DNA from: Strobilurus pachycystidiatus
Lineage: Eukaryota > Basidiomycota > Agaricomycetes > Agaricales > Physalacriaceae
Length of the DNA stretch: 64,000 nt
Assembly: GCA_019915135.1 (NCBI GenBank)
Contig: JAHLMK010000007.1
Span: 310,001 to 374,000, forward strand
Direction of reading: 5' to 3'
Program-made: the position numbers and the translations under genes
Shown here: in pieces, positions 29,048 to 59,749 of the stretch
Layout: each line of letters opens with the position of its first letter
Position numbering within the stretch: the stretch's first letter is position 1
The notes under the pieces: model-generated
The model's input: the letters and a program-made list of their open reading frames with translations, nothing else
Told to the model about the DNA's origin: nothing
Database searches by the model: none

Positions 29048-29080
29048 GGGTAAATCACCCTTTTGCACCACAAACTTTGT

Positions 29081-33430: not shown

Positions 33431-33439
33431 AGGGCTAGG

Positions 33440-36274
33440 CTAATTCGTGCGAAGACCTCGCATGACCCAGGTAGCATCTTCGACAGCTTCTCCCCACTCA
33501 CCCCACTCCACGAAATCATCCGTCGGGATCAGCGCGACCGCCCACACCCACAAGCAATACACGATGCCAAGCATGCCGTTTTGACCGCGGACATCCAGCA
33601 CGCCCCAGTCCTGCATGCCGCGCAGGCGAATGCGCCGCCAACCACCATCCTCGCGCTTGTCGCGCCATTCGGGTTGCATGCCATCATACCACAGTGCGTA
33701 TGCTGCCTTGTGAGCTACCAGAGAGATGTTTTTGTCGGCAAGGGTAAGCATCTTTGGTGTGCGAGTTAGACGACCCCTCACCACCCACGCATCCAGCACT
33801 TCAGGACGGCCATCGCGGGGAAGTTGACCCTTCGCCTCGAATTCGTCAGCGCCCTCGAGCAAAATGAACATATCCAACAATTTCTGCCAGTGGGCTCCCA
33901 GCTCGGCCGCCTCGAAATATGACCAACTCGCCGAGAACCATGCAGGCGCATCCCGCAGAGCAACGGCAACATCATCCACTCGCTCCGCCGCCTGCGCGTC
34001 TATCGCTGATTGGAGAAGTCCCCGAACGTGCTCCATTACGGGCAGTGGCCCAGGCGCCGCTCCAGGCACAGGCGCCAATGACTGCGCATCGTTGAGAGCG
34101 TTCGCGACAGAGGGACCAGGACCGACAACCTCCACGTCCTTGTCCTCGTCTACCAGCTTCTCCGATTTCTTTTTGCCGATTGCTTTTGGCTTGGGGCGGG
34201 AGGTGGTCGAGGGCTGGGTGGCGAGAGTCACGGATTTACTGAGGACGACGGCAGACGTGGAGTCATTGACCAGAGACGGTTCGGAGACGACGGAAGGGGC
34301 GGAGCCATCGACGATGGGAACAGTGATGACCAGATCATCGACCACCATAGCATCGGGTGCGCCGACGACGGCAACCGCGGAACAGTTTTCCGTCCCCGTG
34401 GACTCGTCCGTGATAGACGCACCTTGGTCGATGGTCATGGGCTCGGGATCGGAGATTGCCCCAGAGCTATCCATATCCATTCCATGTGCGTCACTACTCA
34501 TCTCCATATGACTACCCTCGCTCACACTTGGACCAGCGTCGCTCGGCAGCCCATCTCCTTCAAGGCCATCCTGCGCCACCTCCCCCTCCCCCCCGGTAGT
34601 CGTTGCAGTCAAACGACTCGAGCGACGAGGAGGAACACTACTGGACCCTTTCTCCCGACGCTTGCGCTCGCGTTTGGGTTTCTCCATCATCTTCTTCAGC
34701 TTTTTGCCCTCCTCCTGCAATGCAAGGAAGCGCGGCGAGGACTTGATGGCGGCAATCCGAGCCTCACGGTCGCGCTCGTATTGGGATAGCTTCGCCTGAG
34801 GATAAGGCTCCGGCTCCTCATCGTCATCCTCGGAGGACTCGTCGGCGCGTTGAGCATCGACTGCCGTCTTCTTCCTAGCAGAGGTGGACTTGGACGGACG
34901 GGAGCGTTTCTTCCCGCGCCCAGTCGTCGGCGCCGCCTCTGCTTCGTCGTCGTCCTCCCCTTCATCGGAATCGGAATCGGAATCGCTGTCCAAACCTCCA
35001 TCATCCTCCTCGTGGACCTGTCGGTCGATTTCTCGATCCATCTCCTCTAACTCGAACTCAAGTGCAGTCGGCGCCACTTCGGACCCCTGAGGTAGTCTGG
35101 CCGCCGCAATGTCCGCCTGCGTGTAGCACGTCGCCCCGTACTCCTCGACGTAGTCTTTCCACTCCTGGAATTTCTTGCGTTTCCACTTGGCGACGTTCAC
35201 AGGTACGGACTCTCGGTTCTTGCCACTACAAATCCTAATTCCGACCTTTAGCTTCTGACCATATCACCCGTATCAAACGCACATACGTGAGCATGGTGAT
35301 CTCGCCGTTATATTGTGGCATTGGGCCGACGGCGTGGATGATCATCTGGAGCCCAGTCACCGCCGACACCATCTCTGCAATGGGCTGCAAAAAGGCTGGC
35401 AGAGTCTTGATGCATCTGCGGGGCATCAAACAAACGTCAGTGAATCATGATTTCCTCGCGACCACAATCAAAGGACTTACTCGGCACGAATCTTAGGATC
35501 TTGCGATGGCGGAGCTTTCAAAGCCTCTTCGTAGGCTATCTTGGCGTCCTGAGCGGTGTTCTTCGCCTTCTTCGCCCACGCCTCTCGCTCATCAACTGAC
35601 AGAGCTGCGAACGTCTCGCGGGCAACGGCTTGTCGGAAGCCAGCATGCAGACGTCCTGAATCTGTGCCGGCTGCGACTGCCAACTCCCAACGCGCCTGCA
35701 CCTCTTTTGCAAGCGATTCCTTGTTGGCGACTTGCCACTCCTGGAAGGCCTGACGCGCTTTCGGAGGCTTCTTGATCCCCGTGAGCTTTGCTAGCACGCC
35801 TGTGTACGGGTCGTTCAGGATATCCTGGCGCAGGTTCATCCGAAGTCTCATGAGTTTCTTCCCGCGGTATCGAAGCCAACGACGAATAGCCTGGTAGTAA
35901 CAATCAGTTTACAGAACGCTCCCAGACTTGGAGCGCACCTTCTTGGTCTTCTCAACAATGACACGTTTCCGCGCCATGTCTTCGTCAGAGAGCTCGTCGA
36001 CGGGCATAGGGACTTTTTCGTTTTCGCGATATTCATTGACAGGAAAAGGCGGATCCTCGTGGTCGGGAACACGCCAGTCAACTTTGGTGAAGTAGTCGCG
36101 GTATAACGCCTCCAGGAGCTGCTGCTCCGCGACGTGGCCTTGGCGGATGGCGTCCGCATAGCGAGGGAGCCAGGTGTTCAGGTATTCTCCGCGGTAACCA
36201 TTTGCCCAGCCTTTTCTTCCGCTGCCTTGTGGAGAGTGGCCTTGCTCCTTGCGACGACTCTGACGTTTGCCCAT
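33440..36274 (-). CDS. Family X gene, copy 1, 889 aa (HMG-like region, acidic linker)
   Basis: Joined on minus as 35939..36274, 35481..35890, 35287..35415 and 33440..35234 (introns 48, 65 and 52 nt); total 890 codons with stop. This is a multi-copy Agaricomycete family of unknown function. Residues ~1-112 are basic at the start (MGKRQSRRKEQGH). Residues ~113-245 contain an HMG-box-like helical segment (KARQAFQEWQVANKESLAKE, ETFAALSVDEREAWAKKAK) ending in the family hallmark LKAPPSQDP. Next come LPAFLQPIAEMVSAVTGLQM and CSGKNRESVPV. The long last exon has an acidic Asp/Ser-rich linker, a Lys/Arg NLS-like stretch (KPKRERKRREKG) and a Trp-rich C-terminal domain (YALWYDGMQPEWRD). It is head-to-head with a viroplasmin-like gene 321 bp away. 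A nuclear DNA-binding role is inference. Confidence 0.75.
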
Positions 36275-36595
36275 CTTTCTGTAGGTAAAACCGTCAACAC
36301 AAACGCGCGATGAAGGAAAAATTCGGCTGACCAAAGGTGAGTTTGGGTTTCAACTTGCTAAGTTGGGGGGGCTGAGGAACTATCCAGGCTGTCAGTGGCT
36401 ACAAGACCCGGAGGCGCTTCTGTTTTGCGTCGCCGACTGGAGAGGGAGCAGCTACTACTCCCAGCTGGTAATATTCCGATTATTCCTGCATTTTCTTGCT
36501 GACATCATTTCACCAGTGTCATCCGGAATCCGGGCCGCCGTATCAGGTGCGTATAAGAGACGCCCTTGCAACCACGGCTCATCTATCTAACAGTC
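36275..36595. promoter_or_regulatory. Bidirectional promoter, family X copy 1 / viroplasmin-like gene
   Basis: A 321-bp spacer between two divergent start codons. No frame is supported. A GTATAAGAG box lies near 36551, 40-45 bp before the plus-strand ATG. The same gene-type pairing recurs at 40646-40820. Confidence 0.45.
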
Positions 36596-37283
36596 ATGTT
36601 GCCTGAGATCTTCATTAGCATCTTGTCTTCTGATGAAGAGGACGCCGAATCCAGTGGCTCTGAGGCGTCATTTCACACCGCTGTTGAGGATCTGTCGGAT
36701 TCAGACTATGACGACCCAATCTTCGATCGTTGGCTAGGTAGTCTTCGTGACTCCGAGATTGGACTCCCCGCTGTTGCACCTGCGCGTGAGTGCTATAATC
36801 TTTCTCATCTTTCTTCTTGCAAATCTGACAAGTCGAACAGGAGTCAATCCTCCTCTTCCACTTCCTCGCGGCCTTCCCGAACGCGTTCACATCCGGTCAG
36901 CCGATACAACCCTGTACGAAGTGTCTGGATCGCAGGGAGCGCCTGTCTTGACTCCTGACTGGTGCGATTGCTACGGGTTCCTTTGTCTCTACGGCACTGG
37001 TCTGACAAATAAAACCACCTACAGGGCTACTGCCGCCGCAACTTTGGCCAAGGACAAAGGCGCCAAAGCCGTCGCCCAACGTAAACGAGCCAAAGCTCAA
37101 TTATCCGCAGCCCGTTATGAGTCTCCCCTCGTGGTGTTCATCGGTCGGATTCCCGGCATCTATCCCACCTTCGTTGCTGCGAAGCCTCAGGTTCACCGTG
37201 TACCTGAAGCTGTCGTGATCCACTACAGGACTCGGGCGGAGGCGCAGGGAGCCCTAGCTGTAATAAATAGCCTAAAAGCCTAG
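36596..37283 (+). CDS. Viroplasmin/RNase H1 N-domain-like protein, 189 aa
   Basis: Joined as 36596..36785, 36841..36961 and 37025..37283 (introns 55 and 63 nt), 190 codons with stop. The N-terminus is acidic (SSDEEDAESSGSEAS). A Lys/Ala-rich helix follows. The C-terminal ~50 residues match the small fold shared by caulimovirus viroplasmin and the N-terminal domain of eukaryotic RNase H1: LVVFIGRIPGIYPTF, then a 'V..vP.A.v..Y.tr.EA..al' segment (VHRVPEAVVIHYRTRAEAQG). That fold binds RNA/DNA hybrids or dsRNA in RNase H1. No RNase H catalytic domain follows. It pairs divergently with family X copy 1. Confidence 0.7.
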
Positions 37284-37800
37284 ACAGTTGTCGGGGCAAA
37301 ATATAGGGTATTTCGTGACAGTAGTCAGCACAGCCCATGCTTATGTGATCGCTCCTTGCGGTCCGCGGTTCCGATTAGGGTCCTGAACCGTCCTCGCGGA
37401 TGCCGTTCTTGCCGTCCTCCAAATGCGGATGGGGCCCTCTGAGCCGCACGGCAGACGTCTTGTCATCTCAGTGACAGCAGCACACTTCCTCATTTGGGAG
37501 CACGCCCGCCTCCCGCCCTCCATGGAATATACATGACGAATAAATTACTACGCCACACTTTTGTTTCCTTGTCTCGTCATCGCCTATTGATGTAGTGTAA
37601 AAGAGCGCCTCTTAATACCCACCAGCAACGTAAGAGCCACGCAAACATTATCGAGTCAACTTGTCACGTGGAGGACTTCATTTCTTGCAAGTTGGCGCAC
37701 ACCTGTTTCTCATCCACTTTTCGAATTCCCTTGTCTACGCTAAATTTACGTCCGGATCCAAATCACTTCACGCTGTCGACCCTTGCGCCCTATTGACACG
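37284..37800. other. Intergenic, no gene seen
   Basis: About 500 bp between convergent genes. Short frames only, with no motif. It presumably contains both 3' UTRs. Confidence 0.45.
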
Positions 37801-40645
37801 TTATTTCGCACGTACGTACTCATAGAGTCCGCCCATCATCCACTTGACGTCTTTCACAGCTTCCTCCCATCTATACCTCTCCGTGTACCCCGACGCACAC
37901 GCCGAACCCCACCATGATATCACAGCGACCACCGTCAACAGGCCGTTGACACCGGGACACTCCAAAATCTCCCAATCGTTCCCGTAGATCTCCCTCTCCC
38001 AACATTCGTCGCCATTCCTCACACGCCAACTTGGCTGCAGCGCACTCCACCACGACGACCATGCCACCATGAACTTCTCGACCTCTCCCTCACCCACCGC
38101 CAGCCTGTCCAACCTCGATGTTCTCCCCCCGGCAATCCAACGTGAAGCTATGGCTGGGCGCATGGACGCACCAGGTAAGCTTTTCTTCTTCGCTCTGCTC
38201 GTCTCATAAAACTTCTCCAGCTTCAGCAGCATTACGAAGATATCTCGCATTTTGTCTCCCCCATCCGCCTTACCAAACTCCCCCAGTGCGTCACACAACC
38301 AGCTCGGGGCTCCGCTCATCAACTCGGCGTAGTCTGTCGCGTCGGATGCACTCTCACCCAGCAGCGGCCTTGGCGACGCAGGCGCTGGGGGTGGATTCGC
38401 TCGGATCTCTACATCTGCCGCCGCTGCGCCCGTGACAATCCCATCCATTGCCGCTGGCGGTGCGGCATCAATCATGTTCGCTTGCGACCCCGCCTCAATA
38501 TCAGCAGATTTCGCCTCCGCCTCCTGCCCAGCGTCAGCAGCGTTCATCGACGTGGAATCAGGGCTACTGGTGGAGGTAGGGTCTGTGGCAGGAGATAGTT
38601 GGGGTCCGGGAACATGGGACGGTGCGTTACTGGGGGACAAGTCGGCAGTTGGGTTTGAGTTCGTGTCGGGGACGGGTGAGGGAGGATCGTTTATTTCGGG
38701 GACAGGTGCGGGAGGAGGATTGTTTATTTCGGCGACAGGTGCGGGAGGAGGGTCGCTTTTTTTGGCGTTAGCCATCGCCGCCGAGGCGCGTGTCGACCTC
38801 TTCGGACCAGGGATAGCTTGGACGCTGGATTTACGTGTGCGGCGCGCCGGTTTATCCTTCCCCTTCGCATTCAATCCAAAGGCGTCGTCCGCAGTAGTCT
38901 TCGGATTACGCGTCAGGCCTTTCTCCATCGCCTCTTTACCCAGAATCGCCAGCTCCGCCGAACTAACGTCTCCCATCCCCTTCCCCTGCGACTGCAGAAA
39001 CTCCAGACCGGCCAACATGCACTTGTTCCTCTCGATGTTCGCATCACGTTCCGTCTCGTATAGGCTTTGCTTCGGTTTGGAAACACCGACAGCGTTCTCC
39101 TTCTGGCCATTCCTTCGCCGTTTTCCCGGTCCTCCCTCCTCATCTTCGACGTGCTTGCGCTTGCGCTTGGGGATGACGTCGTCATCAGAGGCGTCGTCCT
39201 CGTCGTCGTCGTCGCTCTCATCGGAGTCAGACTCAGAGTCGGAGTCGGATTCGGATTCGGATTCGTCTTCACTTCCGCCGTTGTCGTCGCCCGTCTCACC
39301 GCCTACATCCATGGCGATAAGTCCATCGAGGTTCGGCATCGGTGGCACCGGGATCATGGACGATTCAACCGGAACAGTCGACTCTGTGTCCGCCGGTGCG
39401 ACCGAGACGGCGGCAGCTTCACGCGCATCAGCCGCTGTTTCGGCGGCTGGAATGACGACGGATAATTTCTCTGGAGCGCTGTAGCATCCGTCGACCCAGC
39501 ACTCCCAGTCAGCCACAAGCGCTGCCATCTTCTCCTTGCCGAGGTATTCGGGAAAGGTGAGCGGTGAGTCCGACTTGTTTTTACCAACACAGACACTGAG
39601 AACCCCATCAGCACGAAACCCAGGAATGCGCCGGAACAAACTCACTCAAAGCTACCGATTTTCCCTTTGTATTTATTCATTGGGCCTCCTACAAGCACGA
39701 ACGTTCTGCAAGACGTGCGCTCCTCAATTCCCGAGTTGATCTTGATGATGAACTTCTTTGCACCATCCACCGCCCTACGAACACGATGCCGTTAGCTTTT
39801 CCCTCGCATATGACCAGGACTGACTTACTTTGCACGGGTGGCAGAGTCCTTGGACGGTCCCGCCTTCAACGCCGCATTGTACGCTTCCTTTGCCGCCTTG
39901 GCCTTCCGCTGTACCGTGCCCTGATATTCCTTCTGCTCGTCCGCCGTCAACTTTTTGAAGGCTTCGCGGCACACCTTCAGGCGGAAGGCGAGTGTCGGTT
40001 CCGCTTCCGGAGATGCATCACTGGCCCGCCAGGTGTCGTCCACGAGCTTCTTCAGATGGTGTCCAGCCGTCCATTGCTCATCCATATACGCGAACACTGC
40101 CTGCTGCTGCTTCGGCGGCCGGTCGACCCCGGCCATCTGGCTCATGAGTATTTCGTACGTGTCGTTCGCGTCGCGGGCGGTGAGCTTTTTGTGATCCTTG
40201 CGCAATTTCCTGAAGCGAAGTTTGATCCAGCGCCGAACTCTCTGCGCCGTCGTCTCAGCATGCGCGTCTTTTCCTTTGACTAGCCGCTGCTCAATAGGAA
40301 TATGCTCACCTTGTTATACAGCATGATATGCGCCCGTCTCGCCACGACTTGCTCCTCCGTCAAACCAGTCTCGACATCCGGGTTGACTTTAGTGTGGTCG
40401 TATGACAGCAATTCAGTAGGCTCCTCTGTGTCTTTCATCGGCCAGGGGAAGTGAAAATGATACAGCCCCAAGATGCGCCGCATCTCTGTCTCCCCTTCAC
40501 TCCAACCGCGCTCAACAGCGTCCGCGTACGTTACCACCAACGGCTCGCACACCTCGGCCCGTTTCCCGTCCATCCATCCCAACGCACTCTCCCGCGCTGC
40601 CTTGTCCTTCTTCGTATAGCGCGCAGAGCGTTTCTTTTTTGGCAT
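37801..40645 (-). CDS. Family X gene, copy 2, 890 aa
   Basis: Joined on minus as 40310..40645, 39829..40241, 39646..39774 and 37801..39595 (introns 68, 54 and 50 nt); total 891 codons. It has the same domain order as copy 1: a basic start (MPKKKRSARYTKKDK), RRWIKLRFRKLRKD, an HMG-like segment (AVFAYMDEQWTAGHHLKKLV, EAFKKLTADEQKEYQG), LKAGPSKDS, FVLVGGPMNKYKGKI and CVGKNKSDSPL. An acidic D/S/E linker, NLS-like KRKRKH and a Trp-rich C-terminus (WSSWWSALQPSWR, VISWWGSACASGY) follow. Exons 1, 3 and 4 are 336, 129 and 1795 nt, exactly as in copy 1, although the proteins have diverged strongly. It is head-to-head with another viroplasmin-like gene, 175 bp between start codons. Confidence 0.75.
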
Positions 40646-40820
40646 TGCGGCGGTTTCGATTTCGAGGAGGCAGACGGCACGGAGGGTATTCTGTGACAGT
40701 AGCCACGCAGCCACGGCTTGCCGGTGCGCAATCTCGAAATCCAATTCAAGATTCGGACTCAGCCTGGCTGTTGACCATAAATTCAAATCGGTTGCGATAT
40801 CTTCCTCTCCCTACCTCCAC
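40646..40820. promoter_or_regulatory. Bidirectional promoter, family X copy 2 / viroplasmin-like gene
   Basis: 175 bp between divergent start codons, with a CT-rich stretch (CTTCCTCTCCCTACC) just before the plus-strand ATG. Too short to hold another gene. Confidence 0.45.
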
Positions 40821-41557
40821 ATGTGCGACGCCCCCATTTCTTCAGGCGACGATGCCCACGTATCGTCGCCCGCGGATAGCGGGCTTTCTCCCTTCAGTGA
40901 TCCTTTTGTACCGTCGGGCCACAGTTTCAATTGGGCTGACGCAGTTGAAGCGGAATCTGTGGCACGCTTGGTGGATGTCGACGATGCCGCTTCGATTCAT
41001 TCGGATGCGTCGTCGGTCATCATTCAGACAACGCCTGGTAGGTTTCGGCTTACCTCTACGCGTGCTCTGCTGATAGAGTTCTTTAGCGTTTGGTCCAGGT
41101 GTATTCGCGCCTCCGTCGTATACCTCCCTCAGCAACGCCGCCTCCCACATTAGCGACTACGTCTACGATGCTCGCATCAATGCCGGTGACTATGTGAACA
41201 ACGAGGACCCCCTCCGCGTTGGCGTCATGTTTGATTCGGTCCCCTCTGGTCCACTGCGCCCTGCCTTGATCCGTAAGCGCACCACCGGGAAAACACATTT
41301 CTATTGTGTCATTCGCGGTCTCAAAGTAGGAATCATCACCGACGCGTAAGTGCACCCACCCTCCGTTCGTTGTCCATCGATGCTAACAGTCTGGCAGGGC
41401 GCAGGCTGTCTCTTACATCTCCGGTGTTAGTCACGGATTCCAAATGAAGTTCTCCACGCAAAGTACCGCCCTCGAATACTTCAACGAAGAACTCTCTCAA
41501 GGGCATGTCAAGATCTGCCCCTCTCGCCGCCCCCGCCCATATGTTTCCTTTTCGTAA
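40821..41557 (+). CDS. Viroplasmin-like protein, 207 aa
   Basis: Joined as 40821..41037, 41099..41345 and 41398..41557 (introns 61 and 52 nt), 208 codons with stop. The N-terminal ~75 residues are acidic and Ser-rich. The C-terminal domain reads THFYCVIRGLKVGIITD, then QAVSYISGVSHGFQMKF and STALEYFNEEL. It keeps the viroplasmin layout of a 'Y.V..G...GI' strand, an intron at the turn, a 'qv.gi.g....f' strand and an 'A..yf' helix. The intron splits the domain at the same place as in the 260-aa neighbour. It probably binds nucleic acid if the fold is functional; there is no catalytic domain. Confidence 0.65.
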
Positions 41558-41730
41558 CATCATTGTACACCGCCTGATTCCTCGATATAGACGCTTCATC
41601 TGTTGCTGCGTCATTGCTTGATGGGATGGGATTACATATTGCCTATCGTACAGTATCACATTGTCTCGCTAGTATTCCGCGTGCTCGTTTGTTTGGAATT
41701 CCACATAGCTTGTCCTCCCCCATCACCATC

Positions 41731-42671
41731 ATGTCCGAGCAAGGTCCCCAACGCCGCGCCAGAACGCCCATCCAAATTGTGCTGACCGACTCATCTGGAG
41801 ACGAGGCAGCTCCGCCACCCCGCCGTCGCGTTATCCCACCGTCAACATCACCTCACCAGGTGGCTCCTCCCGTCGACGACTTGTTAGAAGCATTGGCGGC
41901 TCTAGACCTACGCCAAGAGAGCGACCGTACGCTCTATTCTGTTTCGAATGAGCGTCACACGCGGCAGACTCCACACTGGTAAGGCCCGTCCCATATCACA
42001 TCGAACCAATCCCTCATGATAGTGAAACTTACAGGGCGGAGGCGGCAGAGGAGCAGATCAATGGCGCCGTGGTTATGAACATCTCACCTCGCAAGAAGAG
42101 ACGTCGGAAAGCTGTTGCCTGGGTTGTGTTCATTGGCCTCAAAACGGGTGTCTTCAGGAGCTGGTATGTATCTCTCTGTTCTCTGCACCACTGCGCTTAT
42201 CTTCCTCCCTCAGGCACGAATGCGAAGACCAAACTAGCGGTGTCGCCGGCAGCATTTACCAAGCATATTTGTCCCTCGAGTCTGCTCGGGCCGCCTATCG
42301 ATATGCGGTTCAACGGCAGTGGGTGTTTGATGCGGGGACCGTCCCGGTTGCACGTCGCCAAGGGAAGACGACCATTCTGTCCAAGACTGATGACCTGGAG
42401 TACCTCGAAGATAACCCGGCCAACCACGACGTCACAACGCCGCGCTTCTATGTCGTCTATGCCGGATCCCAGCCAGGAATCTACAAGACCTAGTGAGTCC
42501 CGTTAATGACGCCACAACAATTCAGCTACTCATTGCCGCACAAGCCCGCAAGCGGTCCACGCGTGGCTCGGTATCCCGGGTGGTTATCATGACTCATACG
42601 AAAGTGTGGATAAAGCCCGGTTGGAATTCAGACTGGCTATGCGGGAAGGGCGAGTAAAGCATGTGGCGTAA
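41731..42671 (+). CDS. Protein with two tandem viroplasmin-like domains, 260 aa
   Basis: Joined as 41731..41978, 42035..42163, 42214..42492 and 42545..42671 (introns 56, 50 and 52 nt), 261 codons with stop. After an N-terminal Ser/Pro/Arg-rich ~85 residues, domain 1 reads AWVVFIGLKTGVFRSW, then SGVAGSIYQAYLSLESARAA. Domain 2 reads PRFYVVYAGSQPGIYKTY, then AVHAWLGIPGGYHDSYES and ARLEFRLAMREG. Each domain is interrupted by an intron at the equivalent Trp/Tyr turn, a sign of internal duplication. It lies 170 bp downstream of another viroplasmin-like gene on the same strand. Biochemical role unknown; RNA/DNA-hybrid binding is the family precedent. Confidence 0.7.
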
Positions 42672-42711
42672 TGTATGTAATAGAATCCTTTGAACTACGA
42701 TGCACTGTAAA

Positions 42712-43394
42712 CTACTCGAATGTAACACATCGCAGACGTCGCTGTTGTGTGGCCCGTTTGAGTGTATTCTTGCCCAGACGCTGTTGTATGTCCCTCAGAT
42801 AAACACGCAACTCTTCAAACTTGCTGTGTACTCCAGTAATTAACCTCCATTGGCCGGAGGTCTCTGATTCCCCTGATGCGACTAATTCCTCCATGGCGTC
42901 TTGAACGGGAAGGTGATAGCGCTCGACTCGGGCAATATCAAGCTTAACACGGTGACGCGCGTAGGAGCGATCAAATTCCGTGTACGACATGGCGAGATCC
43001 CAGGCATAGTCTCTAAGACTGCCGGACGTCAGCAAGCGTAGGGCTTCACCCTGCTTGAGCGCCCGGTTGACGAGTCCCTCGAGATCTCCGACAGGCGGCC
43101 TAATAAGTTTAGATTATAAATATGGTAAACCAGACAACCCGTATATCAGTAACATACCGAGGCAATATCAGTGGATCCTTCTCAATATCGCGTCGTAGAT
43201 CGTCTTGGGCGCGCGACGCCTCGTATTTAGTCTTTGCGCGCTCTAAGACCGTGGTCCTGTTACTAGGGAAAGCATAAGATGAAAGGTAATGACCATGGCT
43301 CGCTTTTAACTTACTTTGCGTAATACCGACGCCTCGCTGCCCGAGCAGCTTCCTGCCGTTCCTCAGCGGTGTTATACAGCAACTTACGACCCAT
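42712..43394 (-). CDS. MGRK-family small basic/helical protein, copy 1, 190 aa
   Basis: Joined on minus as 43315..43394, 43158..43262 and 42712..43099 (introns 52 and 58 nt), 191 codons with stop. The N-terminus MGRKLLYNTAEERQEAARAA then RRRYYANNRTTVLERAKTKY resembles a basic DNA-contacting helix (bZIP-like basic region without a clear leucine zipper). The remaining ~120 residues are helical (LVNRALKQGEALRLL, RHRVKLDIARVERY). A paralog at 51.1-51.8 kb has the same three-exon layout and an identical 80-nt first exon length. It faces a small helical gene head-to-head, 501 bp between start codons. Function unknown. Confidence 0.65.
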
Positions 43395-43895
43395 GAAAGG
43401 GCTTGCAAGACGGGACCTCGGCGAGGAGTGTGTGCGACAAACCTACTGATGATGGTTTGTGTAAGTGTTCGCTCGAAAGGGAGCTTACTGGTAGATGGCT
43501 ACACCTTAGGATAGTTTTACGATTTTTTCTGCCTCCTTGTCCCGGCTTGATGCATTGAATGCATGATATATAAAATAGCATGTTTGGAGTGTTCTCGATG
43601 CACAGATGGCAGCGAGTCAGTCATCGGCTGAAATTTTTATTGAGGTTATCTGGACTCATCACTTGGATCAGACTTGGATAGTGTCGCGTTCTGGAGTCTG
43701 GCGCACTGAGCGACTATGGGGTGAAGTATTTTCGACCCCGATGGCGTTGTGGATATATCACACGGGTGGCAACACCGCGGTGTGGGTTCGAACCTCGGGT
43801 GGGTCCCTCTCTTTTTTCTGCTCACAAGTCGCTTGCCGAGGTGCCGTCTCTAGATAACTACAATTCTGTACCCTGTTCTTTGTTTGTCTACGACC
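43395..43895. other. Divergent spacer with Pol III-like signals and inverted repeat
   Basis: Contains no supported protein gene. A box-A-like TGGCGTTGTGG at 43742, a box-B-like GGTTCGAACCT at 43785 and a T6 run at 43812 lie in tRNA-like spacing. Segments near 43408-43426 and 43833-43850 are imperfect inverted copies (core ACCTCGGC). Confidence 0.4.
43734..43817 (+). ncRNA. Degenerate tRNA-like / Pol III unit
   Basis: Box A (43742-43752), box B (43785-43795) about 43 nt later, and a TTTTTT terminator at 43812 are spaced as in a tRNA gene. GACCC (43734) could pair with GGGTC (43802) for a five-bp acceptor stem. The D stem and anticodon arm do not fold well, so this is a pseudo-tRNA or SINE-like head at best. 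Confidence 0.25.
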
Positions 43896-45546: not shown

Positions 45547-45593
45547 CTCGGCTAGTCATTCTTTTTATGTATGACTAATTGTTGTCTGCAGCC

Positions 45594-50126: not shown

Positions 50127-50312
50127 TAATTTTAGCGCGATCTTACCCGACAGAGGATTGCTCACGTCTTGGAGAACATGCCGTACGTTGCCGGTGACGT
50201 TCTCGGACGTCAGCGCCTAAGGACTCGTCTGCCGTGATGGCCGCTGCCTCTTGGGGCATGCCGGGCACGGCACCCGCCCACAGCAACGCATTTGCTACTT
50301 ACCTATAGTCGC
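50127..50312. other. Spacer after KDZ copy 1
   Basis: Under 200 bp. Contains paired GGCATGCCGGGCACGG and related GC-rich segments, and no gene. A terminal inverted repeat of the element might be sought here. Confidence 0.3.
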
Positions 50313-50773
50313 ATGACTACTGTCAGCAAATACTATCTATTTTGCCATGACTATTGTAAGCTAATAGGCTATTATCCACAGCTACAGGTGGCGCAGGTAG
50401 CATTTCGTTTTGCCTTGCACCGTGGATGGGTACGTAAGTATACTGCCAATGGCTGGATGGAAATGTGTACTCCGTCGTTGGAGCTTTTCGAGACGACGGA
50501 ATTCACCAACCCTTTGAACGCCGGGGCAATGCGTCCACGTTGGTATTGTGTCTATCGCGGCATCACGCCTGGCGTTTACGGATCCTTGTGAGTGACATTT
50601 ACATTTCCAATCGCTCCATCTGCTAAGGTGCGATCTATAGGCTAGAGTGTGCCCTCAATATCAGCGGGCTCAGGGATCCTTATCACGAATCTTTTGGAGA
50701 TCTTGCTACTGCCCGACAGAAGTTCCGCGAAGCTGAGGAGAATCATCGCATCCTCGCCTTACACCCGCGATGA
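50313..50773 (+). pseudogene. Viroplasmin-like gene, 5'-truncated
   Basis: Joined as 50313..50587 and 50641..50773 (intron 53 nt), 136 codons with stop. The second domain is complete: RWYCVYRGITPGVYGSL, intron, LECALNISGLRDPYHESFGD and ARQKFREAEEN. It matches domain 2 of the 260-aa gene. The first domain is represented only by its end (VAQVAFRFALHRGWV); the expected 'VVFIGLKTGVF' strand is missing and replaced by SKYYLFCHDYCKLIGYY. Either 5' exons were lost when the adjacent KDZ element arrived, or they have decayed. It may still encode a 135-aa single-domain protein. Confidence 0.55.
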
Positions 50774-51097
50774 TTATTTCTTTACTCTACTTTAGTGTAG
50801 ATATCGATGTTTGGGTGTAGTCCTACAATATACGCATTATCCATACCAAGTCCGGACTCCCGCAAGCCAAGGGCAATATATCCGAAGACCGATTGAATAC
50901 TCCACATCTCAGATATCGCTAAGAACAACACTGTAGACACTCCCGAGTTCCGACAAGACCGACGAGCAACGAGCATGGCATCGCGCAGCAATGCGCGACA
51001 AGTATTCATGTCCCCTTTTCTGTAAATCATAATGTTTTATATACACCTCAAGTGCGAAGAACAAGAGATCAATTTAATATGAATTGCGCCACATCAT
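50774..51097. other. Convergent 3' spacer
   Basis: About 320 bp between the truncated viroplasmin-like gene and the MGRK gene, which converge. No gene seen. Confidence 0.4.
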
Positions 51098-51801
51098 TTA
51101 ATGACAGAAGGGAAAGATCTTATCTAGCAGATACTCTTCAAGCTCATCATCCTGCACACAACGATAGGTTGCCTCGACATATGTTTCCGCCATCACGAAC
51201 CGGTCCACCAAGCCCTGATCTGCCTCGCATTCTTCGAATCGGCGTCCGTACTCCATGTGAAGGTCGTTCAAAGCTCGCCGGGCGGGCGCCTGGAAATCAG
51301 CCAAGATGCATAATACATCCTCGAGTATGCTCATGGCTTCGTCCTTGGACACAAAGGCACAACGCTGTGCCAGATCGAGCGCAAACGTCGCAATGTTGGA
51401 GTGGGTGTATTTCTGAAGTTCGCGATCTGCGGCCTCGACCAAAGCAAGCAGGCGGCGGCGATGGGATGGTCCAGTCTCTTGCTCCTTCCTAGACGTAGAT
51501 ATCATGAGAATAGTTAGGAAACGCTAATGCAAGTGAGAACATACAATATGGGTGCTCTTCGTCCCGTTCCCGACGAACGAGGCGTGTCACAATCCGCTGT
51601 GGCCACTCTTAGCTTCTCATTCTTTTTGTTCTGTGCCTTCTGGATAGTTTTGCGATTACTTTAAGAGACGAGGAAATCGAATAAGATCCGCGTATCAACC
51701 CAAGGCAAAGACTAAACTAACCGATAATAGTAGTTGAGGCGATGAGCTCGTTTAGCTTCGAGTTTCTCTTCAGCTGTGAAGTACTTGCGCTTGCGACCCA
51801 T
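51098..51801 (-). CDS. MGRK-family small basic/helical protein, copy 2, 194 aa
   Basis: Joined on minus as 51722..51801, 51545..51658 and 51098..51488 (introns 63 and 56 nt), 195 codons with stop. The N-terminus MGRKRKYFTAEEKLEAKRAH then RLNYYYRNRKTIQKAQNKK is the same basic-helix pattern as copy 1 at 42.7 kb, with 'TAEE.-EA.RA.R..YY..NR.T' shared. The middle is Ser/Thr/Arg-rich; the last ~120 residues are helical (RRRLLALVEAADRELQKY, FQAPARRALNDLHMEYG). First exons of both copies are 80 nt and end in the same phase. Function unknown; the basic N-terminus suggests nucleic-acid contact. Confidence 0.65.
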
Positions 51802-52203
51802 GCGTGAACGAGAGCTAGGCGTGTGAGCACGTAAGCAGATGTCGCCAAGCGGTTGTGAGCCCTGGTAATGAGATGAGAGTGGAAGACAAGAGTTGTTTTA
51901 TATTTAACATCGTGTTCATGAATGTCATTTAGTATATATTGGACTTTTATTGGACTTTTATGAGATAATAACATGAGCATGTCCCTTGCACTTACCAGAT
52001 ACCATACATGTAAATACGACGCGCCAGAACGCCCTCCCGCCGCCTGTACGGCCTGCCCGAGAAGTCCGATCCTACCAAATTAGGCAATGCGACGCGCCGA
52101 AGAGTTTCTTCCGCCTCTTCATTGGTTCGGGAGGTGCTCTTAGAGACTCAGGAATACAGATACAAGATGACATGCGATTGATTCGTAAGCTACATTCAAG
52201 AAA
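51802..52203. other. Intergenic, no gene seen
   Basis: About 400 bp upstream of MGRK copy 2. Contains a direct repeat TATTGGACTTTTAT (51937-51960). A plus-strand frame across 51986-52708 is antisense to the CGI gene and rejected. Confidence 0.4.
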
Positions 52204-53125
52204 CTACCAAATATCATCGTCTGAGTCCTCGTCGTCTCCGCTGAGATATCCCACTTCGTGGATTGTCGTGTTGGCCAGGAGCTGTTCCACCGACACCAAG
52301 GTGGGACCGGAACTGGATGGTCCGGCTGCTGGGGCGGCGGCGGAAGAAGCAGCGGCAGCTCTTTCAGCGCGGCGCCGTTCCCGGTCGCGAACCATATCTC
52401 CCGCGGTGTATCGAGTGTGCGGAATATCTAGTTATTATACATCAGCAAACATGAAATTTTACTCTGCGATGAGAACGCCCACCAGTGAAGGACATGCGAG
52501 GGTCGTTACACGGCCAACCCAGGAAGAAGAGGAGGCGGTACCAATTTTTGCTCTTCACAGAGATACCGACGGCATGGCGAAAGCGTTTCCGGTTGTTCTC
52601 GTTGTCCAAGTACCTCCAAACGGCGGGGAAATCTTCGGAGTGAATGATCCCGCACATTTCCAAAGCCGGTTCAAGCCAGTGGGCCTCTACCTCGTAGAGA
52701 CAATATAGAAGATCATTTGTCATCCTATAAGCGGTGGGGACGCCGTCTTGGGCCTCAGCAGCATAGTCACGCGGCGGCATTGTTTCCCCTACAGCGTTGG
52801 ATCAATCAGCGTTCCCGTCAAAATATATCTACAAGACGTACAGTGGGGCGTAGGCGTTTCAACTTTGATGTGGAGCTCGCGCCAACTCCGAATGAAAACT
52901 TGGATCTCCCTGGAATTGAGGTCAGACCAGTAAGATCGTGAACGGTGCTGATCTTGCATACCGTTGTGTCCGCGTCAAGGGCTGGTAGGGTTCTGGAGGC
53001 GGCGAAAACTTCATATCGACAATCATGGTGGTTGTGAAATGAGAGATGTCAGGGTCGGTCGGTCGGTCAGAGGAAGAATCGAATCCCGGCGAATCACTCA
53101 CAGAATTTGAGGATTCGGTTTTCAT
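52204..53125 (-). CDS. 'CGI'-type small helical protein, copy 3, 253 aa
   Basis: Joined on minus as 52928..53125, 52842..52875, 52483..52788 and 52204..52427 (introns 52, 53 and 55 nt), 254 codons with stop. The start is ATG 53125 (MKTESSNSVSDSPGF). The shared motif appears as WLEPALEMCGIIHSEDFPAV, followed by NWYRLLFFLGWP, matching the 'W.iL' segment of copy 4. The C-terminus is Ala/Arg-rich (RRRAERAAAASSAAAP) and then acidic (LSGDDEDSDDDIW). Only this copy lies on the minus strand. The tiny 34-nt second exon is supported by phase on both sides. Confidence 0.6.
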
Positions 53126-53357
53126 TGCGGACAGAATTTCCAAGGAACACAGATTGTCGAGTTACTTGGGCCAAATCACTGCCGGCCGTTTCAATTCAAC
53201 AGCTGCATTGGCGAGACAGCTGCAGGCGAGTAAACTAAAATCATGTATACAAGACAACTGCATGCGTAGGCCACGAATCAGACGAAGAAGATGGACAGCA
53301 AAACGAAGACGGTAAAAGTCACGACGATTGTTGATAAACTTTGATCGAATTATTCCA

Positions 53358-53782
53358 TCATCCAAGAAGCGAGCGGGTGGCCCGGGCCGCCCTGGCCCTG
53401 ACTTCTGCTTTAACCATCTTCGCCTGCAGTTTGTGGAAAAGCGCCCTGGTCCACATTAGCTGACGGTACTCCCGGTCATGGACCTTTGCCTGGGCGATTT
53501 TGGCGACCCGCAACCCATACCACGTCCTCTCGATGCCTTCTCCGTCACCCAAATTGACATGCAACGTTCTCCCAATGCCTTCTCCCGCCTTACACGACTG
53601 CGTGTGCGCAAGATCTTCACATACGGGTTACACAAGTCAGTTAACAACATCAACATACTGTGCATGGATTACTTACCGTTCCACACAACGTAGTGTTCCC
53701 GATTTTCGACCCAGTCCTCCCAGGTGCGGCGAGGACGATAGGCAATTAGACCCCGTTGGTACGGATCGCGAGGAATAGACAT
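53358..53782 (-). CDS. Hypothetical protein, two exons, 120 aa
   Basis: Joined on minus as 53677..53782 and 53358..53614 (intron 62 nt, GTAAGT..TGAAG), 121 codons with stop. The protein begins MSIPRDPYQRGLIAYRPRR and has TWEDWVENREHYVVWN. The C-terminal half is a long basic helix (ALFHKLQAKMVKAEVRARAA). It is not recognised. It is head-to-head with CGI copy 4, 144 bp between start codons, as the MGRK gene is with CGI copy 1, so it may be a distant functional equivalent of that partner. Confidence 0.5.
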
Positions 53783-53926
53783 GTGTGCTTGTTGTCTGCG
53801 ACCTTCTGCGACTAGCACCCAAGCTTTTTAAGGTATGTGTCCCTGTTCCTATCTCTGTCCCTGGCGTGCAAGATTACACCGCGAGATTACACGCACCTTC
53901 TCCTGACTAAATCCATCTCTTCCGCC
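53783..53926. promoter_or_regulatory. Bidirectional promoter, 120-aa gene / CGI copy 4
   Basis: 144 bp between divergent start codons. Contains CTTTTTAAGG near 53823 as a possible TATA-like site and two GCGAGATTAC/AAGATTAC repeats. Confidence 0.35.
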
Positions 53927-54743
53927 ATGAAGTACGATACCCGCAAGTCGCGCGTTCAAGGTGACTTTCCCTACGAGCGACGGGTGCGACAGACTTTGGG
54001 ACCCCTTCAGGAGTCAGATTTGCATCCTCACTCTGGGGCTCAAACGTACGTCGAATCGCTTCTTGATGTGGCCGCCAATCCACTTATTATCACCTTCTAG
54101 GCTTTTGCACAACAGACTTCGTCGTATTCGTCCGTTGGTGTCCGAGCCACTACGGGAACGCAGCACATCTGGCAGGGGAACTTTGCTCTTAACTGGTCGG
54201 TTCACGAGTGTGTCTTGCTAGTCGGACTGAGCTCACGGCACCCTTCTAGTACGACATGAGCGGTCATCATCGGACGGGGTGTTGTCTGTAGATTCTCCTG
54301 GAGCGGTGTCGCGCTACGTTCGAGACGCCCTGCATGTGTTGCGAGGGTCTGCCCTGCTTAATGGGTTCCAAGCCTGCGGAATTTTGACACATGATGATGT
54401 GGCGACGCTCGGAGCCTTCTGTACGAATCACGAAAGCGTGGTCCTCATTGCCTCTGCACTTGGCTTCAATGAATGGGATCCAAATTGGCATATTCTCAAA
54501 GCCTGGTTCCGCCGCTCACATACCAATCCGCCCAGTGAGTAAACCTCAAGATGTCGTTATAGTCCTGATTTGTTATTAGGTTTTCACTGTCGCCAGCCTA
54601 GCTATCTTCGGCGTCTTTACGACATTTTGGGTGCCTTGGACGACCTGTTGGAGGAGGAGGAGGCTGACCTCATGTTTCGCATGGAATGTGCGCATATGGA
54701 TAAGTTGGCGGCTGAGGCAATAAGCGCGACTGCCTGTGATTAA
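53927..54743 (+). CDS. 'CGI'-type small helical protein, copy 4, 220 aa
   Basis: Joined as 53927..54045, 54101..54195, 54250..54534 and 54580..54743 (introns 55, 54, 54... and 45 nt; acceptors TTCTAG, TTCTAG, TTATTAG), 221 codons with stop. A basic N-terminus (MKYDTRKSRVQGDFPYERR) and Arg-rich second exon precede the shared motif NGFQACGILTHDDVATLGAF and the DPNWHILKAWF segment. The C-terminus is an acidic coil (DDLLEEEEADLMF). It is closest in its motif to copy 1 (CGI/MGI.THDD). Function unknown; the repeated motif suggests a conserved interaction surface. Confidence 0.6.
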
Positions 54744-54949
54744 TATTTGTTACACCACCAATAGAAACTTCTTATTTCTGATTTTCATCGTGTCAGGTGT
54801 GAGCGAGTGTGTTTGATTGAACGCCTCCTATAGAATATCTTGGCAATGTCATATCTCGATTGACCTTCAGTTTCAGGTAGGTAGTCGCGGATACAGATAT
54901 GTTATTCAAATAGTCCAAATCTACGATGCGATGGCTGACTACAGCTGAC

Positions 54950-55543
54950 TCAAAGAACGATTTGACCAAATGTCTGTATGAAGTTTACCCGAAGGCGATC
55001 AAGCATGGCCGAATAGACGTCGATGTAGACAACAACGCGCGACATATAGTCCGGACTGCCGGGCGGGAGGAAGGGATTACTGAGTGTGAGTGAGTACAAA
55101 AACCATCAGAATAGGAGAATCGGACACACTTGTGGGTGGCGCGAGGCTGTAGATAGAACTGAATGGCGGCGCCTTCATCAGCGGGGAGGTCCTCGGGCGA
55201 CAATACCCTTGGGTGTGTGGAGTGTATGTGGGGCAAATGGATCTCGAAGTCATCCTCCTCCAGACGCCGGTTCAGAATCTGCTCGAAATTGAGAAGTATA
55301 TCCAAGAGATAAGATTTCACTGACCTCCACCCACTTGTCACGCTCAAAGCTGCCCACTACTTCGTACCGTTCAAACCACCAGCGCTTCAACGTCGGCCAA
55401 AATTCTCCCAGTGCGTTATGAACCTCGCATTCGGCATAGAAAGGGCGCCACAAGCGCAGAATATCGAGTTGCTCGCGTGTGGCGGGGCGCTCGGTGCGCA
55501 AGGCTCTCATCCGCAGTTGTCGTGCGCGCCAGTCGTAGGTCAT
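54950..55543 (-). CDS. Hypothetical protein, three exons, 166 aa
   Basis: Joined on minus as 55325..55543, 55130..55281 and 54950..55079 (introns 43 and 50 nt), 167 codons with stop. It begins MTYDWRARQLRMRALRTER and contains FYAECEVHNALGEFWPTLKR, LEEDDFEIHLPHIHS and DYMSRVVVYIDVYSAMLDR. It is not recognised. It is helical and polar with no membrane segment. It lies head-to-head with KDZ copy 2 (171 bp between start codons), the position an accessory gene of the element would occupy. It has three exons and similar size to the MGRK genes, but I see no convincing sequence match to them. Confidence 0.5.
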
Positions 55544-55714
55544 GGCAAAGATGGTAGTGGCCACGGAAGATCGCGCGCATACTTATGTCGTCGTTCGTTG
55601 ATTTCCCCATTCGGTATTGCAATTCTGGATTGGGAAGAGTTCCCCTATCTCTTTTTCCCTACCTTCTACCCTTGCCCACCCGCCCCGCCACTTTTGTGTC
55701 ACCCACATCCCGTC

Positions 55715-58700
55715 ATGCCCAGCAACACCACCAGCGGCCGTCGTCTTACGCGATACGAGCAGGAACAACTTGACGCGTTTCACCGTCGCACTCTCGTTGA
55801 AAACGGATTTGCCGCCAATGCGTCCGCTCCTCCGCGACGAGGTCGTCCTAGGAAGAATGGGCCAACTATGGAATCCAGCGTCGAAGTCTCTGCACCACGT
55901 AACTTCCGCGTCGAAGGTCCTTTACTGGAACAGAGGGACTCGACGTATACCTTCTCAAAGGACGGCACGCGTGTGCATACGGATGGTGCTGCCGTGCGCC
56001 GCCGCAAGGTTCCTAGAACGGGACTGGCGGCAACAACTCCAGCTTCTGGCAGTTCCAGTCATTCCTATGATGCTGGCGGGGTGGGTGACGCGGGGGGCGA
56101 GGATGACGGGTGGGAGGATGTGCCGCAGGCGGACAACACCATGCCGGGCGTGGCAGCCCATTCTCTGGACTTGGCTGGGGAGGAGGATGATGCCCACATT
56201 TTGGAGGAGGAAGATTCACAGCCTCACAAGCGGTACCAGACCTCGGTAAGTCGGGCATCGCTAGACGCGGGATTGTTGAATTGACTTTTATGCCAGGATG
56301 ACGCGATGTCGGTTTGGTTGCCACTACAGGACAAGTTTTTGGTCCAGACAATAACGCGTGAGCATGCGGGTACCTCCCCCAAGTGTTCTACGTGCAACAG
56401 CATTTGGGTTTTGCCTACGACTGCTCCATCAACCATTCCCCCTCCTCCCGAGTCTCCGCCTTCTCCTCCAGCAAAGACCGTATGTGCACTCTATCGGTGC
56501 GACCAGTGCGGAGATGCACTCGAGTGTCTGGACTGTTGTCTATTGAGGCATAGGCGCCAGCCATTTCATCGCGTTCGGGTACGTCACTCTTTTGTTCTCT
56601 TTGGGAATATGCGACTGAGGCTCGCACTAGGCTTGGACGGACAGAGAGTGCTTTGAGCAAGTCACGCTACGAGAACTCGGCCTCGTCTATCAGCTAGGGC
56701 ACGGCGGCGGAAGGTGTCAGGTTCCAGGTTCAACTCGGCGCGTTACGGTGTTACATACCACAGGCGTACATGGCGCCATCGTCGCGAACTGCGCATGCGA
56801 CCGACACGCAGATGATGCGGGAGGTTGGAGCGCGGCGATGGACACGTCTCTCTACCCGGCCACCGGGTTGTTTCCTCAGACCTACGCAACTTTCGAAGCC
56901 CTTGACGAGTTTTGCCGCCTCAACGTCATTGCAAACGTTAACGTCCGAGACTACGTGAGCGCGCTAGAGCGGGCGACGGATCCTTTGGGCACTTCCTGGG
57001 TTCCTGACCGGTACAAGTCTTTCGCCATCATGTCACGACAATGGTCCTTTCTCAAGCGAATGCGACGAAGGGAAATTGGACACCTGGACGGGGGGATCAA
57101 GTCGGCGCCTCTGGGTTCAGCGGCGATACGATGCTGGGCGTGCCCTCGCGCTAAAGTGAACATTCCCGATAATTTCCGCGATGTTGAGGAGAACTTAAAG
57201 AGAATTGCTCTTTTACTTGAACGTTACAGCGAACTGATTTTACTCTTTGATTTAGGTTCAAATATCAGTTATTTCTCGGTTTGGATGCGAATTTTCGCAT
57301 GGCGAATAAATTGCGCAAGAAGAGCAAGTACAAGAAGTACCCGATTCTGGGAGACGGCCTTGGAAATCTGGTGCCGAACGACAGCTATTTTGAACATCTA
57401 AAGCGTTATGTCAAAGAGGAGGACGTGAGTGAATTTCTCTCTGTGTTGTCTTCTTGTGTATGATATCTGATGTCAGTTTAGGTTTTGACGTGCATCGCCT
57501 TTGCCGCCTTGATGCAGAAAGAGACACGGGCGTCCGCTGGGCTGCGGGCGACAGGTGTGGGGGGTTGTATATGCACGAGGCACGAGATCGTACGGCCGTT
57601 GGGGCTTGGCGACCTTTTGAAAGGCGAAAGGTAATCTATGCATCGCGTCTCCGACTCATAGCTGACTCCTCGTTACGGCAGGTACGCCAACATGGATTAC
57701 ATGTTTTGGGCGTCGGTACTGGGCGAAGAACTGGCTCAGATACTCGTGTCGTATGATATTGGGTGTCAATGGAAGATCAACCTTCATCCTCGCCTGCAGG
57801 GTATGCCTGCACTCTTGAAGCCTGATTCCGGAGCGGAACATCCTCCGCCCGTTATCCGGGTGGGTCTTCCGGTGTGGCATGGGGCCGTACATGAAGAGAG
57901 CTGTCATCTGAAGAACTCTCTACGGTATCGAACGGGTGCTGGGATGACGGACGGTGAAGCGGTCGAGAGAGTATGGTCGGCAACAAATCCCACAGCCACC
58001 TCTACAAAGGAGATGCATTTGGATGCACGGTACGAGACGCTGAACGACACCATCGATAATCATAATTTCGTCAAGAACGTTGGGTTGGGTGAGCGTCGCT
58101 TCTATTTTCGCTTTGAGCTTCTTGACTTATGTCGTTGTCGCTTAGGTTCTTTGATCCTCCGCCGTCTGGAGGTTGCAAGGGAGGAACGCGTGGCGCAACT
58201 CGAAAATTACCGCGAGACAACAAAGACCCTCAGTCCCGATTTGCAGAAGTTGTGGCAGGATGAGCTCATTGCGTGGCATGCAGAGGAGGATCTGCTCGAT
58301 AAGGATCGCAAAATCTCAAAGAATCCCTACATGTCGCGGTTCAAGTCAAGTAAGTGTTCTCAGTGCTCACCAATATGTAAGAAGTGACGGCTGAAAATGC
58401 GAGATAGGCACATTAACAAAAGCAGATGTGGTCAAACAGCTTGAGGAGGAGGCCGCGGCGGAGACGAACAGCCTGAACGGGAACACAACTTCCAGGTCTC
58501 GGAAGTCCAGCGCGGTGATGTTTTTGGACATAGGATTTCGATTGGAAGATATACAGTAAGTGGTGGTCTAATGAATGCTTTACTTTGTTTGCTGACGATA
58601 CTGTTAGGCGTCGCATTGAGGACCTCAAGAAATCGCGCGTCAAACTCGGTGGCGACGCTGAACACGAGAGGAAGCTGAAGGAGAGGCGGGCGAGTTTTTG

Positions 58701-59749
58701 GAAGGGTTTGATGCGATTTCGTGCTCTGCAGGCCACGTATATGCCCGGGGTACGCTCTTTTATCGACGAGGACGAGGAGGCTGCGACTGCCGCCGGGAAG
58801 CCAATTCTCGCGGAAAGTGTCAATCTGTGGCTACCATGTGGTGTTGCGGCGCGCGTCCAGGATGATCCAGCAGTGCGCGAGGCTTTCTGCAGTGCGCGCC
58901 TCTTTACCATGGAGGAGGCGCTTTGTCGGGGTCAATGTTCGGAAGCTTTGATGCTTTTACGTGTCCGCCTGCACGCCAAACGCCATCTCATCATGTTCCG
59001 CAACACGTATATGACTGGACAATCGAGGACGACCAAAGCACGGACACTCATCGACAGCGTAAGCGACCGGGTAGATGGACTGGCTAGGCGGTACCGGGCG
59101 GCGCGGTCCTGCCTGGCATTGCTGGCTGGGGAGCAAGGCTGTGGGGAGTTCCGGAGACTCGAGAAAGAGGACGTCTGTTTGCGTTTCGTCCAGGATCATG
59201 ACGCCAAGGCGGCTAGGCGACTGGCAAAGATTGCAGGAAAGGCAACAGCTAGTATGCCAGCCGCGGTTGACGTGTACTCTGGAGATGAGGCGGACGACAC
59301 GGGCGCTGAGCAGAGAGGCGAGGGAAGACGGAAATTGTCGTGGATATGGACGGCGCAAGGAGCGCCAGACGACAGCTACGAATATCTGCAAGAGAGTAGG
59401 TTCAATCTTTTTGGCGCCACACTTGTCTGATGATTGCTTGGCAGCGGTGCGCGTCGAGTGGTGCAAGTCCTTTGCAAGAAAGGAGAGATGGCGCGAGGAG
59501 GTTATCTTGGGGGAAGCAGAGCAAGAGTTTACCCTGGCGTCGTTGAGGTTTGAGGCAGCACAATGGCGGGCGCGAGCGGAGGGTGATTTCGGAAGTGCCG
59601 CAGAACGGTTGGGCAGGAGTGCATACGCTGAGCGTCAGGCTCGGTTGCTGGATCGAGTTTGCGCGGAATTTTCCAGGCGATGGGCGGTAGGGCACTCTGG
59701 CAAACGCAAGCGCAAGAACACTGATATTGTGACGGTGACTACTGTTTAA
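55715..59749 (+). CDS. KDZ transposase, copy 2, one broken splice donor
   Basis: Same family and intron layout as copy 1. Order: basic/disordered N-terminus (PPRRGRPRKNGP), Cys cluster (CSTCNSIW.., CALYRCDQCGDALECLDC, CLLRH), LRELGLVYQLGHGGGRC, YPATGLFPQTYATFEALDEF. The catalytic Asp in GLDANFRMANK, Asp in LVSYDIGCQWK and Glu in MTDGEAVERVWS are all present. VGLPVWHGAVHEESCH and DTIDNHNFVKNVGLG follow, then WIWTAQGAPDDS and the stop TAA 59749. Eight of nine introns are normal. The third, 57200..57255, has the right acceptor (TTTAG) and phase, but the donor reads GA (GAGAAT) instead of GT. Only removing exactly this segment gives EENLKFKYQLFLGLDANF. The gene is therefore probably inactive or mis-spliced. 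Protein identity to copy 1 looks moderate, so these are different KDZ lineages rather than a fresh duplication. Confidence 0.8.

Follow-up and report, generated by a model that had tools for sequence, protein, structure and literature searches.

KDZ (Kyakuja-Dileera-Zisupton) elements form a superfamily of DNA transposons in which accessory genes are, among fungi, said to be frequent (PMC12477816, citing Iyer et al. 2014). Those of Cryptococcus are mobile, about 9-11 kb long, and flanked by target-site duplications of 4-8 bp (PMC12810828). The partner described for KDZ transposases is a TET/JBP dioxygenase (Kojima 2025, PMC12730594), whose gene has been proposed to aid escape from methylation-based silencing and is therefore a precedent for anti-silencing cargo; in the same paper, as excerpted, Kyakuja elements have 7-bp duplications, CA..TG ends and no terminal inverted repeats, and Zisupton elements have 8-bp duplications. 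Viroplasmin genes are also carried by mushroom transposons, as in the Helitron helpo1.3 of Pleurotus and its gene capE (PMC4289320). Here we analyze a 64-kb stretch (the window, G000:C7:310001-374000) of the 51.8-Mb, 61-contig genome of Strobilurus pachycystidiatus, in which one complete KDZ transposon, element 1, was inserted later inside a gene of another, element 2. The window elements share with the superfamily the KDZ core, the CxC cysteine cluster, duplications of 7-8 bp and large size, and we consider it very probable that they are nested KDZ transposons, each carrying an ordered module of small genes upstream of the transposase that would serve the transposon itself.

Element 2 spans 32090..60023 on the plus strand (27,934 bp including the insert and 14.8 kb without it), with the ends AGTCCTAGCTGTAAAATATAGCC and CCACAGCTACTGGTG, and is flanked by the duplication copies GCCAAGCG (32082..32089) and GCCAAGCC (60024..60031), identical at 7 of 8 positions. 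Element 1 spans 37250..50390 on the same strand (13,141 bp), has the ends AGCCCTAGCTGTAATAAATAGCC and CCACAGCTACAGGTG, and is likewise bordered by copies that match at 7 of 8 positions, GCGCAGGG (37242..37249) and GCGCAGGT (50391..50398). A chance match of at least 7 of 8 random bases has p = 0.0004 per site, given even base composition and with the border itself chosen from the alignment. The ends of both elements are like those of a third, on contig 41 (AGTCCTAGCTGT or AGCCCTAGCTGT, and CCACAGCTAC[A/T]GGTG), and are imperfectly inverted. This contig-41 element (C41:37685-22615, compared as loci L035 and L036) is an uninterrupted relative of element 2, 15,071 bp long, with different flanks and with TTCCTGCG on both sides (8/8). 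It is colinear with window positions 32087-37252 and then with 50399-60023, the two parts being joined at contiguous positions (6055/6053); the 13.1-kb segment that it lacks is element 1, for which it represents the empty site. The borders of element 1 were taken from this comparison because the genome contains no close copy of the DNA of its transposase gene, KDZ1, from which borders could be read (the best-scoring other match is 66% over 1.3 kb).

An inverted repeat at 37284-37327 and 50314-50357 was tried as the terminal repeat of element 1 and rejected, since the contig-41 comparison sets the ends 33-34 bases further outward; it is subterminal, and so is the repeat at 32157 and 59928 in element 2. 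Contigs 5 and 3 have related loci where the two flanks of element 2 occur without the insert: in the empty site L037 the left flank stops at 265 and the right one starts at 259, with the duplication counted once, and L038 also has both flanks close together (222 and 244). The host site is a retroelement-like reading frame, with gag-type and aspartyl-protease Pfam matches in the left flank (29054-32110) and a 1337-codon open reading frame (ORF) without a Pfam match in the right flank (59990-64000). Element 1, in turn, entered the viroplasmin-like (V) gene of element 2 where the first domain of that gene ends, directly behind the TRAEAQGA codons. The two KDZ genes point the same way and a single outer pair of ends encloses the listed genes, as would be expected of a single giant 28-kb composite with duplicated modules; a relative that runs contiguously across the place of 37252-50399, and an inner segment with ends and a 7/8 duplication of its own, make that arrangement hardly credible. 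A sequence-only reading of this stretch had named a nested insertion zone as one of two alternatives for 33440..59749, and this is what the contig-41 comparison reveals, although the unit is wider (32090-60023) than had been proposed.

In element 2 the transposase gene KDZ2 (55716..59749, plus; CxC2 56631-57401, KDZ core 57662-58387; ends approximate) is preceded, reading upstream, by a MTYDW gene (54985..55543, minus), CGI gene d (53927..54744, plus, 3' end approximate), a small KDZ-derived gene or relic (53361..53782, minus), CGI gene c (52207..52780, minus), a MGRK gene (51098..51801, minus), the split V gene (plus) and X1 (33440..36274, minus, of several exons with borders read by eye). 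The 5' part of the V gene (36596..37249) contains a first RNase H1 N-terminal-type domain (PF01693); its severed 3' part (50391..50773) has a second such domain by eye, and no Pfam match when scanned alone. The contig-41 relative has a counterpart of every member of this module, and the order is the same. In element 1 the gene KDZ1 (46078..50126, plus; CxC2 46828-47559, KDZ core 47771-48280; ends approximate) is preceded by CGI gene b (44797..45783, plus, 3' end approximate), CGI gene a (43896..44544, plus), a MGRK gene (42715..43394, minus), V3 (41731..42657, plus, PF01693 at 31.7 bits, 3' end approximate), V2 (40821..41557, plus, one domain by eye, its exon lying outside both the Pfam scan and the genome-search rows for PF01693) and X2 (37801..40645, minus, of several exons with borders read by eye). 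Because both elements carry a similar set of helper genes in similar order, the arrangement suggests that these transposons act as multi-protein systems and not by a lone transposase.

Both transposase genes contain the KDZ core PF18758 (102.8 bits in KDZ1 and 120.7 in KDZ2, cut-off 26.6) and, upstream of it, the cysteine cluster CxC2, PF18803 (111.4 and 78.8 bits, cut-off 27). Over 137 columns the KDZ exons of the two genes share 44.5% identity, and the genes are therefore not recent duplicates. The inventory drawn from the sequence alone thus stands for the two full KDZ genes (matched over 46828-48280 and 56631-58387), for the two X genes, and for the four CGI and two MGRK genes, all of them recovered in the ORF listing and alignments. 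Its four viroplasmin-like genes reduce to three, as the pieces at 36.6-37.25 and 50.4-50.8 kb belong to the one gene split by element 1, and it had missed the conserved MTYDW gene. Its KDZ relic is retained in that a KDZ-like DGE..ERTW stretch is present at 53361-53627 (minus) and also in the contig-41 relative, with weak matches to the KDZ ORFs of two other elements described below (blastp E 1.3e-4 to element B and 0.003 to element A). The same reading had offered, as its other alternative, cargo or accessory genes of a composite element, and had named KDZ termini drawn tightly around the transposase as evidence that would speak against it; in this genome the ends and duplications enclose the small families together with the KDZ gene, and both alternatives hold at once.

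As to what the small genes encode, family X is predicted to carry an HMG box in addition to a C-terminal domain of its own: PF09011 scores above cut-off in the copy of element A, and a profile built from six X copies matches HMGB1 (E 0.0022), mainly over the second half of the box. The viroplasmin-like genes are assigned RNase H1 N-terminal-type domains by their Pfam matches. Modeled CGI proteins look SAM-like, and searches of PDB sequences with the CGI and X C-terminal profiles returned nothing usable. MGRK proteins begin with a short basic motif, and their N-terminus is shared between copies (blastp E 2e-5), which is better evidence of kinship than the grouping of their cores, a grouping seeded with one class I copy and one window copy and so not independent proof that the cores are related.

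Genome-wide searches were made with PF01693 for V and for X, CGI, MGRK and MTYDW, with cytochrome P450 genes and the retroelement integrase rve as controls. KDZ loci (n = 145) were merged from KDZ-core matches (150 of 249 candidates scored, giving 174 matches, some of them unlisted) and CxC2 matches (all 147 candidates scored); rows within 2.5 kb on the same strand were merged, and near-identical copies were kept in the counts. For the controls, 92 of 281 P450 and 150 of 176 rve candidates were scored, and the V search admitted matches with E as high as 0.1, a few rows falling below the Pfam cut-off. As the searches recovered one V place, one of the four CGI and one of the two MGRK genes of the window itself, the counts describe close relatives of the queries. 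Outside the window, the zone within 10 kb of a KDZ locus makes up 5.0% of the genome and contains 19 of 28 V, 41 of 97 X, 10 of 13 CGI, 5 of 9 MGRK and 3 of 4 MTYDW loci, compared with 2 of 86 P450 and 6 of 136 rve loci; within 15 kb (7.1% of the genome) X reaches 77 of 97 loci, P450 stays at 2 of 86 and rve has 18 of 136. An earlier count with 120 merged loci, before CxC2 was added, pointed in the same direction. At least one listed member lies within 15 kb upstream of 79 of the 145 KDZ loci, and downstream of 24. At least two lie upstream of 23 loci, including both of the window; three of these 23 (C12:1495455, C12:1512815 and C6:2080284) do not have the usual spacing. Co-occurrence with KDZ genes within 10 kb above chance, which had been put forward as a test for these families, is thus found in this genome, and they are not spread independently of KDZ loci here.

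If the small genes were host genes captured by chance, or part of a repeat-rich island that KDZ elements also happened to hit, they would do no service to the transposon. Such an origin would be consistent with the location of some family members apart from any listed KDZ gene and with a slight tendency of KDZ genes to neighbor other repeats (p 0.0075 for rve at 15 kb). We judge it very improbable, as the genes lie inside ends with duplications and are colinear in the contig-41 relative, their order and strand are alike in many elements, rve and P450 show no excess at 10 kb, and copies are under coding constraint.

Positions relative to the transposase follow two main layouts. Family X lies 6.5-9 kb upstream on the KDZ strand at 25 of 99 loci and 9.5-14.5 kb upstream on the other strand at 40 of 99. 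With the strand reversed, these intervals contain 1 and 2 loci, and with the position mirrored downstream, 2 and 11; X never occupies both places at one KDZ locus. At 18 of 29 loci V is found on the KDZ strand, 5.5-11 kb upstream, and on the other strand MGRK lies 4.8-8.5 kb upstream at 5 of 10, CGI 4-7 kb upstream at 7 of 14 and MTYDW 2-3 kb upstream at 4 of 5. In a FastTree phylogeny of 20 KDZ cores, both window cores group with those of contig 41, L007, L029 and L022 (support 0.998), with the long-branch L001 inside; the contig-6 twin of L022 has X and V. The first-layout cores of A, B, C and L002 fall outside this group. The core of L020 (set G) groups beside first-layout cores (0.848), yet the X gene of this locus sits on the opposite strand, 13.6 kb upstream; because of this exception, layout and transposase lineage agree only partly, and there may be a third arrangement. 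Immediately to the right of the window, at G000:C7:377301-384985, there is a KDZ gene with X 7.3 kb upstream on the same strand, and both layouts thus occur close together. Two further loci resemble element 2: C22:20349-37935, where V, MGRK, CGI and MTYDW precede the KDZ gene and X lies at a distance of about 17 kb, and C4:2523406-2531446, with MGRK, CGI and MTYDW and no V or X among the matches listed.

The genome also contains several sets of near-identical KDZ copies. In sets A and B the aligned units measure 12,293 and 12,321 bp, with 99.85% and 99.96% identity between the two copies compared; their extreme ends, CAGGCCA...GGTTG, lack clear terminal inverted repeats, and their 7-bp target-site duplications differ at each of the four sites. 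The KDZ gene lies at one end, and the remaining 7 kb inside the borders hold X, MGRK and others. Because near-identical copies carry different 7-bp duplications, these related 12.3-kb units, with X and MGRK inside, must have moved recently. Sets C, E, G, I and J, whose alignments reached 3' ends only or no ends, were not used for borders. Set H was dropped as an 8.3-kb unit, as its contig-6 copy has V and X further upstream, and no 5' border is claimed for it. Element A contains a further ORF (L009:553-1080) that ends in WGPEF and has no Pfam match, with a similar ending in element B. A copy of set J is broken from L026:8151 onward by CAGGCCAAGG, which is like the 5' end of A and B; KDZ elements may thus be nested in one another elsewhere in the genome.

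Selection on the carried genes was assessed between element 2 and its contig-41 relative over 22 stretches running from stop to stop, trimmed to local alignments. The ratio of replacement to synonymous substitution (dN/dS) lies at 0.13-0.31 in X and 0.03-0.18 in V, at 0.18 in the MGRK core, at 0.16-0.20 in CGI and at 0.17-0.22 in MTYDW, and KDZ itself has 0.05-0.34; synonymous distances of about 0.3-1.8 imply that the two elements have an old common ancestor. Elements A and B have diverged almost to saturation at synonymous sites and not at replacement sites: the proportions of differing sites are 0.74-0.83 (synonymous, pS) and 0.12-0.36 (replacement, pN) for X exons, and 0.73 and 0.41 for the MGRK core. 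These values indicate that the cargo has been maintained as protein-coding sequence along the element lineage, and such constraint does not tell who benefits. Starships are known to carry multi-gene cargo with benefit to the host, and true cargo of this kind, kept by selection on the fungus, would equally give dN/dS below 1. For the elements described here we regard it as improbable: the predicted domains look nucleic-acid binding or adaptor-like and not metabolic, and the families accompany KDZ genes throughout the genome, near-identical recent copies of the other layout among them, as expected of transposon machinery.

A number of observations weigh against a conserved module with the domains proposed. 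The HMGB1 match covers a partial box, the window exons of X1 and X2 gave no HMG match when scanned singly against Pfam, and the X C-terminal domain has no convincing fold (pLDDT 70; no Foldseek match under E 2). Matches of CGI to the SAM fold are weak in Foldseek (best E 2.6) and middling by Z. No listed member lies within 15 kb upstream of 66 of the 145 KDZ loci, 24 loci have a member downstream, and rve itself is mildly enriched at 15 kb. Near-identical copies in these counts are not independent, and the V, CGI and MGRK searches are insensitive, most of the genes of these families in element 1 having escaped them. Outside the preferred positions are 34 of 99 X, 11 of 29 V and 5 of 10 MGRK loci, a second CGI place (2.5-4.5 kb) shows no strand specificity, with 2 loci on the KDZ strand and 4 on the other, and the intervals were set after the offsets had been seen. 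The dN/dS values come from one pair of elements only, with the relic at 0.35, the N-terminal stretches of MGRK and of plus-strand CGI saturated, and one stretch unmatched.

Among described systems, the TET-positive Kyakuja elements (PMC12730594, as excerpted) are matched by elements A and B in their 7-bp duplications, CA..TG ends and lack of clear terminal inverted repeats, whereas the window elements have duplications of the 8-bp type, AG..TG ends and imperfectly inverted ends; by duplication length only, they would fit the Zisupton or Dileera type, for which 8-bp duplications are typical, joined in Zisupton by terminal inverted repeats. Where KDZ elements have been described with a TET/JBP partner, the partners here are X, V, MGRK, CGI and MTYDW, and no TET/JBP match was found among 30 window ORFs and 9 ORFs of elements A and H, a scan that leaves out some small exons and in which distant types would be undetectable. 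The Helitron helpo1.3 likewise carries a PF01693 gene as mushroom transposon cargo, but it is a Helitron copy and the gene is described as captured (PMC4289320, as excerpted). In the KDZ literature surveyed, partly as excerpts and with Iyer et al. 2014 outside the survey, no description of an ordered module with an HMG-box gene was found; KDZ elements with accessory genes are already known, and the ordered X/V/MGRK/CGI set with its HMG-box gene is, tentatively, new. The 30 window ORFs gave no Pfam match to a tyrosine recombinase, and the recombinase present is KDZ. A tyrosine recombinase captain gene at one end is the hallmark of Starships. Elsewhere in the window, two adjacent minus-strand ORFs at 428-2761 share 46% identity across 317 columns and presumably resemble BTB/POZ proteins.

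HMGB1 bends DNA in RAG recombination, and host HMG proteins aid some cut-and-paste transposases. The KDZ elements likewise combine an HMG box with a cut-and-paste recombinase; here the HMG-box gene is borne by the transposon and is a candidate for a comparable role. We hypothesize that the module of X, V, MGRK and CGI serves the transposon as follows: by analogy with HMGB1 and RAG, X would act as the element's own HMG partner and bend subterminal DNA, such that ends 12-15 kb apart could be paired; CGI may oligomerize and MGRK may bind DNA through its short basic N-terminal motif, and together they would complete or regulate the complex; V would bind double-stranded RNA or RNA:DNA hybrids, perhaps protecting transcripts from silencing. 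The most far-reaching form of this proposal, that mushroom-type KDZ elements are multi-protein machines in which X, V, CGI and MGRK jointly assemble distant ends and shield the element from RNA silencing, as a counterpart of anti-methylation TET/JBP cargo, is speculative and on balance unlikely.

Families X, V, MGRK, CGI and MTYDW could easily be mistaken for orphan host genes in annotation, and their location within the borders of transposons could account for the number of copies. The annotation of KDZ elements in this genome gains clean element borders, and it becomes testable that some eukaryotic cut-and-paste transposons may carry their own architectural and anti-silencing proteins.

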